Origin: Cheilinus undulatus | Taxonomy: Eukaryota; Chordata; Actinopteri; Labriformes; Labridae | Length of the DNA stretch: 64,000 bases | Direction of reading: 5' to 3' | Assembly: GCF_018320785.1 (NCBI RefSeq) | Contig: NC_054878.1 | Coordinates: 43,623,023 to 43,687,022 of the forward strand | Part shown: positions 28,639 through 36,887 of the stretch, in pieces | Position numbering within the stretch: the stretch's first letter is position 1 | How the letters are laid out: each line of letters begins with the position of its first letter | Made by a program: the position numbers and the translations under genes | The notes under the pieces: generated by a model | What the model saw: the letters and a program-made list of their open reading frames with translations, nothing else | The model's database searches: none | Told to the model about the DNA's origin: nothing

Positions 28639-28684
28639 ATGGCTCCGCTGGGGTTGATCTTCATTTTTGTGCTCCAGTTTGGGG
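28639..28684 (+). CDS. Copy 2 leader exon
   Basis: It encodes [15 protein letters not shown] plus one base, a short hydrophobic signal peptide, followed by the donor g|gtaact. Matching leaders are at 40878 and 60014. Confidence 0.85.
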
Positions 28685-34600: not shown

Positions 34601-36887
34601 AGTTAAACTGACGTATTTCAGCTGACAGGATTACAACCTCCACATGGTGAAACAGAAGGTTCTAGAAGAACCACAGAGCTTCTCTGAAACTGCACAGTGT
34701 GGACTTTACTGAACACAAGAGAAATCTTCACAAAGGCTTGTGTTGTGTATGTTCTATTGTAAATAGATCTTTGGTTGATAATGAGATAATGGGAAGACCT
34801 TGCTTTTGAACATTTTGTTCATTTGTATGTTAGAATTTGGTCGTCAAAATTCTTCTGGTAGTCTTTAGGTAGATAGCATAATGTTTGTTTCTCAACTTAC
34901 TAACCACAGTTTTCTCTCAGGTGTGGGTGATGCTAATCAGACAGAGTTGAAGTCCATCGTCTCTGACCCACATGACACTCACATGTACATCGTCAATGAC
35001 TTTGATGATCTGCTGGACATCACCAACAGTCTCACTGACAACCTGTGTGACAGCATCAAGGGTCCAGGTAAGGAGGGAGACTCAACATGACCCACTTATG
35101 AAAATCTACAACAAACTTGTAGACTTCAGTGATGCAGGAGTGTTTTTCCTGACAGTGGCTCTTTGACTCCTAAGAGTTAAAACTCTTCAGTGTTAGGATT
35201 AAATGTTTGTGATTTTCTCTCTTTATTTATATTTCAGAATCATTTCTGACTCAAATGGAGCTCAGCCCCTGATGTTTTCAGCCTCTTCTCTCTTTCTTTC
35301 CAGTACGCAGCAGTCAGAAAGACTTCTATCACTTCTCCCTACCTGAACAAGACGTCACCCTGCCCTGTGGTACTCCGTCCCCCTCTGGACCTCTCCCATG
35401 CTCCGACATGTCCTGGTTTTATAGCAGAGCTTCATCAGAGGCTTTTACTGAGGCCAACGAAGGAAAGGTTAATCCTAGGTCCCTCCGAGCTGGTCGGCTG
35501 AGTTTGGACTCCGACTGTTCTTTGGTCATCAAACGTGTCACTGATGAGGATGTTGGTCTCTACACGTGTGGCCGTAATTATGATGATCGTTACAGCGTCA
35601 GAGTGTATCTCAGTCTGTTTTTAAGTAAGTCTCATTTCATTATCATCAGTTTAAAGTATTGCACAGCACTCAACCTCAGAAACATCAGTTATCATCTGAC
35701 AGACAAGACTTTAGACTTCCAGTGTAGCCAGCAGATATCTGATATGTGGGCTTAACCTTCCTCTTCTATCTAATGGTCACTTTCTAAATTAGCATTCATT
35801 ACCAGATCTTAGTCCTACTTCAGTCCTGGTTGTTATGCTAAAAAGGACAAAGATAAGATGAGACTTGTCAGGGTCATGTCAACTTAAATTCAGATGTCAA
35901 ATATCTTTAAATTGAGATTTTGATCTTTTTCCTTCAGTCTCTCCAAAACCGACAGACTCTGATCCAACGAGCAACAATGAACTCCAGTTAGAGTGTTCTC
36001 TGTTCAGATTCAGAGATCTTCATCTTTGTCCACCATACCGTCTCCTCTGGGTGAATGAGACAGGAGCTGAGATTACTGACGGTGTTACAGAGACTTTCAG
36101 AGATGAAGGCTGTTTCTCTGACCTGAATGTGACTCGTCAGAGCGGACACAACAAGACATTCACCTGCCAGGTTGTTGATGAGGAGAACAATGTGGAGATA
36201 CAGGCCGACTACACACCTGTCTTCACAGGTAGGACCATTATTTATGCTTCAACAAGATCTGTGGAACAAAACAGATGACAAGACAGATAGAAGTGTAGGG
36301 TAGAAGATGTTTTCTAAAGAGCTGCCACTGTGGTGACCAGAATGCCAGGGTTAATAATTCAATCAGAGCCTTCTTAACTAACAGATATCCTTACATGTTC
36401 AGTTACAGTTATTCACTTATGAATGTTTCTTTTTCTCATAAAACTTCAACAGACTGGTCTCCTCTGAGCTCCATCATGCTCGTTCTGCGTATTTCAGCTC
36501 TTGTTTTGATGATCGTGAGCACTGTTTTGGTCTTCACCCTCAGAGGTGAGGAAATAAACACCATCAATGTGGCAGAAATAGTTCAAACTAATCATATGTA
36601 AAACATTAATGCTGCTATTTACTTCCAGGTAACATCAAACCACGGCGTAAAGAAACCAGCGTGAGTTTAAACTAACTCCTACCATGTGTGACATTTCTTC
36701 TGACTGATGAAACCTCTGAGACGATGGACTCTGCAGAGTTTGCTCTGTTGACTCTTGTTGTTTTGAATCTCATGTGTTGTGTTGTATTTCACAGATGCAT
36801 GAGGATGTCATTGAAGCCGACAATGAAAATGATGAAGCATTTGGTGCTGCTTCCATCGAACTGCAACAACTTCCAGATCAAGATTAA
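28639..36887 (+). CDS. Copy 2: intact Ig-Ig-VWA-Ig-Ig transmembrane receptor
   Basis: Twelve exons: 28639-28684, 30996-31316, 31573-31863, 33052-33201, 33427-33546, 34086-34250, 34921-35067, 35304-35624, 35938-36228, 36453-36545, 36629-36660 and 36795-36887. The spliced coding length is 2070 bases (689 residues), open throughout. Approximate layout: signal 1-15, V1 16-122, C1 123-219, VWA 220-413, V2 414-520, C2 521-617, transmembrane 625-646, tail 649-689. The VWA metal site is complete. The tail has no tyrosine, and Arg 630 lies inside the membrane segment, as in receptors that pair with acidic signalling adaptors. The start was chosen because ATG at 28639 gives a hydrophobic leader with a phase 1 donor; the ATG at 28632 reads a non-signal frame. 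The ligand and partner are unknown. This is the reference copy of the family. Confidence 0.88.
28905..29235 (+). mobile_element. tRNA-derived SINE
   Basis: A box A-like ggttagcgctgtcgcctca is followed by a box B-like ggttctcttcccg. The body with ggcttcctcccacc and gctgggataggctccagccc ends at atggatggatgg, a common fish SINE. The same insertion is in the leader introns of copies 3 and 4, so it predates those duplications. Confidence 0.8.
30230..30480 (+). mobile_element. L1/Tx1-like LINE reverse transcriptase fragment
   Basis: The + strand reads [18 protein letters not shown] wording near 30300-30345 and FKYLGI near 30420, motifs of L1-type reverse transcriptase. Stops and frame changes show it is dead. 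It is shared with copy 3 at 41715-41960. Confidence 0.6.
30996..31316 (+). CDS. Copy 2 V1 exon: Ig V-like domain
   Basis: 321 bases, phase 1-1, tccag acceptor and gtaagt donor. The four cysteines are [18 protein letters not shown] and LYTC: the standard V pair plus an inner extra pair. It lacks the N-terminal and CDR3-loop cysteines of copy 1. [12 protein letters not shown] and AEDVGLYTC are the classical V-set end motifs. Confidence 0.88.
31573..31863 (+). CDS. Copy 2 C1 exon: Ig C-like domain
   Basis: 291 bases, phase 1-1. The cysteines are at LECSLL, SSCQPN, DADCFS and FSCQSV. The Trp block is [15 protein letters not shown] and the exon ends [12 protein letters not shown]. Sequons are in NETG and LNVTHQ. 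Two residues more than copy 1 C1. Confidence 0.88.
31864..33051. other. Intron between C1 and VWA of copy 2
   Basis: It has no gene or clear element and aligns with 43342-44467 of copy 3 over its length. Confidence 0.5.
33052..35067 (+). CDS. Copy 2 VWA domain (four exons)
   Basis: Exons are 33052-33201, 33427-33546, 34086-34250 and 34921-35067, all phase 1-1, giving about 194 residues. The MIDAS is complete: DESGS, GGGTQTG with its Thr, and LFTDG with its Asp. [51 protein letters not shown] and [13 protein letters not shown] give a FACIT-collagen-like pattern. The domain ends near LCDSIKGP before V2. Confidence 0.9.
35304..35624 (+). CDS. Copy 2 V2 exon: second Ig V-like domain
   Basis: 321 bases, phase 1-1. 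The motifs are [37 protein letters not shown] and [11 protein letters not shown]. Compared with V1 it has a RASSEAF segment after the core Trp. The donor is a|gtaagt. Confidence 0.88.
35938..36228 (+). CDS. Copy 2 C2 exon: second Ig C-like domain
   Basis: 291 bases, phase 1-1. It keeps four cysteines ([27 protein letters not shown]), with sequons NETG, LNVT and NKTF, and ends with DYTPVFT. The donor g|gtagga is intact; copy 3 has lost it. Confidence 0.88.
36453..36887 (+). CDS. Copy 2 transmembrane and cytoplasmic exons
   Basis: The transmembrane exon 36453-36545 encodes [20 protein letters not shown] with an Arg inside the hydrophobic run. The tail exon 36629-36660 is basic (IKPRRKETS). The last exon 36795-36887 is acidic ([16 protein letters not shown], ending LPDQD). 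There is no tyrosine, so no ITIM or ITAM. Signalling would need a partner. Confidence 0.85.

Follow-up and report, generated by a model that had tools for sequence, protein, structure and literature searches.

A tandem family of predicted fish immunoglobulin V-C receptors carrying an internal collagen-type VWA domain

Several families of teleost immunoglobulin (Ig) receptors are encoded in tandem, among them NITR, DICP, MDIR and LITR, and the V domains of NITR carry a J-like FGxG motif. VWA and Ig-type domains occur together in one chain in the hemicentins and in ANTXR1/2, where the VWA is N-terminal, and in integrin I domains, which are VWAs with a metal site (MIDAS), an acidic group of the ligand completes the coordination of the metal. 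The family described here shares tandem V-C genes and a single membrane pass with the tandem teleost Ig receptors, and tandem V-set genes with a membrane segment, as are typical of such a family, were indeed found, but within this comparison an internal VWA is a feature of the present family only. The J-like motif of NITR was absent from the 11 V1 and 9 V2 exons that were aligned, which end in forms such as VYLSVFT. Hemicentins and ANTXR1/2 likewise combine VWA and Ig-type domains, whereas here the VWA lies between two V-C pairs and in tandem copies. Similarly, a metal-site VWA is shared with the integrin alpha chains (3.5e-19 against the alpha-X I domain), but the integrin architecture is absent and the nearest relatives that we found are collagen-type VWAs. 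The FACIT collagens (presumably those of the type XII/XIV kind) agree with the receptor in the lengths and phase of their VWA exons, but these proteins combine VWA with fn3 domains, whereas the receptor has Ig and membrane domains, and no fn3 was found in the chain of copy 2 (Pfam, E up to 0.01). Among the papers listed in searches of the open-licence literature, none describes an Ig V-C receptor in which a VWA is internal, and what we consider new is the capture of a collagen-type VWA inside an otherwise known kind of gene, the tandem multigene fish Ig receptor.

The window (the whole stretch of DNA that was analysed, 64,000 nucleotides) corresponds to C14:43623023-43687022 of its own genome. 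The initial annotation had read the second of the gene copies in it, copy 2, as one open chain of 689 residues with the order signal, V, C, VWA, V, C, membrane and tail, and the splice model confirmed this order, with the VWA divided over four exons. The gene has 12 exons at 28639-36887 on the + strand, the exact coordinates of which were confirmed, and a coding length of 2070 nt, giving a single open chain of 689 aa and a stop. GT-AG borders were present in all 11 introns, and the junctions are in phase 1 in 10 of 11 cases and in phase 0 at the last.

28639..28684, + strand: exon 1, signal peptide (splice model)
30996..31316, + strand: exon 2, V1, V-set (splice model, Pfam)
31573..31863, + strand: exon 3, C1, Ig C-like (splice model; the homologous C2 exon has no Pfam match)
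33052..33201, + strand: exon 4, VWA part A1 with the MIDAS DxSxS (splice model, Pfam; length and phase of the FACIT exon)
33427..33546, + strand: exon 5, VWA part A2 with the presumed MIDAS Thr (splice model, FACIT exon comparison)
34086..34250, + strand: exon 6, VWA part A3 with the MIDAS Asp (splice model, FACIT exon comparison)
34921..35067, + strand: exon 7, VWA part A4 (splice model, FACIT exon comparison)
35304..35624, + strand: exon 8, V2, V-set (splice model, Pfam)
35938..36228, + strand: exon 9, C2, Ig C-like (splice model; weak profile match)
36453..36545, + strand: exon 10, membrane segment with Arg (splice model)
36629..36660, + strand: exon 11, tail (splice model)
36795..36887, + strand: exon 12, end of the tail with the stop; the tail lacks tyrosine (splice model)

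A Pfam check of this chain found a VWA (1.1e-47, residues 230-399) and a V-set in two stretches (4.1e-17). The C2 exon searched alone scored with no Pfam family, and a profile built from six C exons matched solved chains weakly (best E 0.025); from their position, their Cys-Trp-Cys pattern and their repetition, the C exons probably encode C-like Ig domains. The membrane segment of copy 2 holds one Arg, and its tail is without tyrosine. An additional Cys pair, the second, is invariant across the aligned rows, at C32 and C71 in the seven V rows and at C30 and C58 in the six C rows, which suggests an extra disulphide in each V and C domain; the C1 of copy 1, which stands outside the six-row alignment, is without this second pair.

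Three further copies lie at least partly in the window; one of them, copy 4, comes in addition to the copies 1 to 3 of the initial annotation and starts at 60014.

2632-2952, 4657-4977 and 6442-6762, + strand: copy 1, three V1 exons (exon model)
7023-7307, + strand: copy 1, C1
9939-10088, 11394-11513, 13917-14081 and 18727-18867, + strand: copy 1, VWA, metal site kept
21239-21556, + strand: copy 1, V2
23166-23450, + strand: copy 1, C2
40878-40923, + strand: copy 3, signal
42493-42813, + strand: copy 3, V1
43051-43341, + strand: copy 3, C1
44468-44617, 44843-44965, 46613-46777 and 48960-49106, + strand: copy 3, VWA, metal site damaged
from 49344, + strand: copy 3, V2 fragment
49791/51553, + strand: copy 3, C2, interrupted by an insertion
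52003-52095, + strand: copy 3, membrane exon
52179-52210 and 52345-52437, + strand: copy 3, tail exons
60014-60059, + strand: copy 4, signal exon of a gene of 20 exons and 1503 aa that runs past the window to C14:43712470

The same exon order had been reported for copies 1 and 3, and it does recur in both, but copy 1 departs from it at either end: three V1 exons, in frame and in phase 1, precede the single C1, a signal-exon match was not found within the window (tblastn), and at the place of the membrane exon a stop follows after four residues. The chain of copy 1 is open through C2, and copy 1 may make a soluble form, if it is made at all; it reads open with one V1 or with all three, so alternative V use is possible. 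The intron between V2 and C2 of copy 1 contains a minisatellite (22546-22804) with units of 42 to 111 bp. The damage ascribed to copy 3 was borne out, as most of its second V exon and two metal-site residues are lost and its C2 exon carries an insertion of 1761 bp (49784-51560). A target repeat of 8 bp on either side of this insertion and its imperfect inverted ends give it the appearance of a DNA transposon. A minisatellite (49915-50436) lies within this insertion. In copy 4 five consecutive V2-C2 pairs, with the phase kept throughout, follow the VWA (C14:43699252-43711109) within an open chain of 1503 residues; His replaces Arg in the membrane segment of this copy, and the tails of copy 4 and copy 5 hold a tyrosine.

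Genome searches with VWA, V2, C2 and membrane/tail peptides, the counts of which are lower bounds, located a cluster spanning both strands of C14:43.60-43.89 Mb, in which 17 VWA-bearing units (c0-c15 and c6b, c2 being copy 2) were modelled in about 176 kb. All eight exons V1-C1-A1-A2-A3-A4-V2-C2 are open in c0, c1, c2, c4, c7 and c9; in c15 all eight are present with A3 damaged, no recognisable A3 was found in c8, and the remaining units are partial, damaged or only partly covered by the modelled sequence. Complete spliced chains without an internal stop were obtained for c2 and c9 (689 aa each) and for c4 (1503 aa, 20 exons), and c7 is open over 674 aa, its signal exon lying outside the stretches checked. 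In c9, which is otherwise intact, the first tail exon has a GC instead of a GT donor (C14:43813443-43813474). The residues of the membrane exon are identical in c2, c3, c5, c7 and c9 and different in c4 and c0.

Eight V matches, two of them with a TGA, were found at C14:43.52-43.60 Mb with C matches close by, and these Ig-only V-C genes had no VWA among the matches listed. One 7-kb stretch of these surroundings holds a V, a C and a membrane-like segment of another kind, and no significant VWA match was found in it. Four membrane exons (at about C14:43.528, 43.560, 43.580 and 43.587 Mb) share 82-88% identity with that of the receptor, and farther V-set matches span C14:42.39 to 43.47 Mb. From these V, C and membrane matches it follows that the VWA genes adjoin a larger Ig-receptor region.

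The VWA exon lengths of 150, 120, 165 and 147 nt, in phase 1, are the same in the receptor and in two FACIT-type genes, the split VWA exons of which lie at C14:46.591-46.594 Mb and C18:29.6456-29.6465 Mb. These genes are labelled FACIT-type for their VWA and fn3, and we take them to be type XII-like collagen genes. When the same 10-kb stretch was scanned on the same strand, one fn3 appeared past the VWA in the C14 gene and two ahead of it in the C18 gene, and no Ig V or C match was found at those places. Identity between receptor and FACIT-type VWAs is 55-76%; relative to the C14 gene it is 76.2% for c0 and 59-66% for the other ten complete receptor VWAs. Sequence and exon structure show that the VWA cassette, with four exons in phase 1, corresponds to and is homologous with the FACIT-type collagen VWA in each of its exons.

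Among 26 VWAs placed in a tree, all 11 complete receptor VWAs fall into a single clade (support 96/91; 93/89 in a smaller tree), which together with its sister clade, the C14 and C18 FACIT genes, forms a group supported at 100/99. A further FACIT-like pair falls outside (four FACITs plus receptors, 93/94), and the receptor VWAs group with those of FACITs and not with single-exon VWAs; a single-exon domain of the collagen VI type was considered as the source and is unsupported by tree and exon structure. Since the receptor VWAs constitute one clade, the VWA was most likely taken up into an Ig V-C receptor on a single occasion. A more specific history, in which the C14 FACIT gene alone was the source after the split between the C14 and C18 genes, is not favoured, though it is not rejected either (smaller tree, p-AU 0.064).

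Copies have probably also exchanged sequence, as judged from c6 and c14 (C14:43.732 and 43.864 Mb), which match as an inverted duplicate: A1, A4 and the adjoining intron are identical while about 1.2 kb over A2 and A3 differs, likely a gene-conversion tract. Gene conversion would mix the VWA exons, and it weakens tests that assume a single tree.

The metal residues (DxSxS, Thr and Asp) are kept in 14 of 15 aligned A1 exons, 12 of 14 A2 exons (where, we presume, the MIDAS Thr is located) and 13 of 14 A3 exons, a count that excludes the A2 exons of c6 and c8 for their displaced donor sites. The losses fall in copies that are damaged elsewhere (c3, c6b and c15), the uncounted A2 of c6 also looks damaged, and the aligned metal residues are kept in 10 of the 11 complete VWAs. 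Substitution rates were compared among core copies, from which c0, c1 and c10 (divergent) and c3 (damaged) are excluded, and exons with displaced frames or sites were left out (e.g. A2 of c6 and c8, A4 of c5, A3 of c6b and c15). Whole-exon dN/dS was 0.63 for A1, 1.56 for A2, 0.76 for A3 and 2.24 for A4, and 1.16 for V1, 1.06 for C1, 0.68 for V2 and 1.14 for C2; V2 and C2 are nearly uniform in these copies (dS 0.033 and 0.014). For the face loops (48 of 190 codons), in a mask drawn after the alignment was known from what we take to be the VWA topology and the loops around the MIDAS, dN was 0.314 and dS 0.156, a dN/dS of 2.01 (codon bootstrap 1.26-3.45), against 0.74 (0.48-1.13) for the VWA outside these loops. 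Circular shifts of the mask reached the nonsynonymous contrast in 1 of 189 cases and the synonymous contrast in 21 of 189. The bottom loops have a far lower dN than the face loops (0.065), with a dS of 0.070; by their ratio of 0.93 they are not strongly constrained.

A purpose-made two-partition codon likelihood model, applied to 7 of the 17 copies, gave with a free rate 2.64 for the face loops and 0.72 for the rest (p 1.3e-4; face loops against 1, p 3.6e-4), and with a shared rate 3.00 and 0.69. No excess was found with a free rate in a mask of the MIDAS motifs only (p 0.96 and 0.61), whereas with a shared rate some excess was present (p 0.0068 and 0.0094). The CDR3-like segment of V1 was also considered as a selected site and was not significant (p 0.47 and 0.19). 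The comparisons with the topology mask and the count of metal residues support, for the core paralogs, a kept metal site surrounded by MIDAS-face loops that appear to change faster than synonymous sites.

The reading that we favour, with somewhat more confidence than doubt, is that of a tandem fish Ig receptor family with a captured collagen-type VWA, the metal-dependent face of which is variable and which is coupled to an adaptor. Its products would be type I, single-pass membrane proteins with V1-C1 distal and the VWA in the middle, in which V2-C2, as one or five pairs, would form a stalk and V1 would add specificity. The MIDAS face would be the variable, copy-specific surface to which ligands bind; the coordination of the metal would presumably be completed, as it is in integrin I domains, by an acidic group from the ligand, and ligand binding at this face, perhaps together with V1, may trigger the adaptor. 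Because of the membrane Arg and the short tail without tyrosine motifs, signalling would probably proceed via an ITAM adaptor, for instance FcR-gamma or DAP12, as for a stimulatory recognition receptor. In PMC4810170, stimulatory teleost receptors are described as having a charged membrane segment and a short tail and as coupling to ITAM adaptors, and copy 2 resembles them in its basic membrane residue and its tail without tyrosine motifs. The His in copy 4 and the tail tyrosine in copies 4 and 5 count against a uniform adaptor rule, and the V1 and C1 ratios, also about 1, and the many partial or damaged units count against the reading as a whole.

A bolder form of this reading, which we put forward tentatively and to which we would give rather less than even weight, is that in a multigene vertebrate immune receptor the VWA fold has taken on the role of hypervariable recognition domain, with a conserved metal site, loops diversified by selection and by exon-scale gene conversion, an Ig scaffold and ITAM adaptors. 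If true, this would be a germline-diversified receptor class in which the variable face has neither an Ig nor an LRR or lectin fold, and, should recognition take place at the VWA face, one more fold would join those known from diversified vertebrate receptors. Independently of this, the exon shuffling from a matrix-collagen gene to an immune-type receptor is traceable here, with a gene of the donor type, the Ig-only neighbours and the early-branching c0 all on one chromosome.

The initial annotation had suggested that the VWA could add matrix or complement-type binding. This suggestion fares less well, since among the core paralogs it is the MIDAS face that is diversified most, a pattern that would agree no worse with a range of ligands than with a single invariant one from the matrix. 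In its fuller form, a matrix-sensing receptor, the VWA would bind one conserved host matrix ligand, any variable recognition would be left to the V domains and the change in the loops would reflect relaxed constraint. Derivation of the VWA from a FACIT-type matrix collagen, the kept metal residues and the lack of significance of the motif-only mask with a free rate are all in line with this, but relaxation alone does not give the face-loop dN/dS above 1 that was obtained with the topology mask, and the diversity falls in the very loops by which a fixed ligand would be held, whereas V2, C2 and the majority of membrane exons are near-uniform. We consider such a receptor unlikely, though the best placed of the alternatives.

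We regard as improbable that the copies act as decoys which mimic the VWA adhesion domains of the host in order to trap microbial adhesins, copy 1 being secreted and the diversity tracking the adhesins. A changing face around a kept metal site, and a copy 1 that is open through C2 and then stops, would fit such a trap, but the other examined copies that reach the 3' end keep the membrane segment, copy 1 may simply be decaying, and we know of no adhesin of this kind. Slightly less probable still is a relic family, a once-active arrangement that now consists mostly of pseudogenes with little function. At least one exon is damaged in c3, c5, c6, c6b, c8 and c15, as a relic would predict, but the three complete chains and the open c7, the metal residues kept in nearly all complete VWAs and a loop change above the synonymous rate argue against it.

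That V-C-VWA-V-C represents neighbouring separate Ig, VWA and Ig genes resembling one, and not the single gene assumed in our preferred reading, is unlikely in the extreme, given the order repeated from unit to unit, the phase-1 junctions and the tight VWA-V2 spacing. A scan of the C1-VWA and VWA-V2 introns of four copies found no membrane-like segment; the same scan missed its own signal-exon control and is uninformative on signal exons, which leaves the separate-genes explanation some room, but by tblastn the signal and membrane exons match only at gene ends within the window. The claim of the initial annotation that the order is no chance alignment of neighbours holds up, since 17 VWA-bearing units share one cluster, and in the four copies checked V2 begins 236-239 bp past the last VWA exon.
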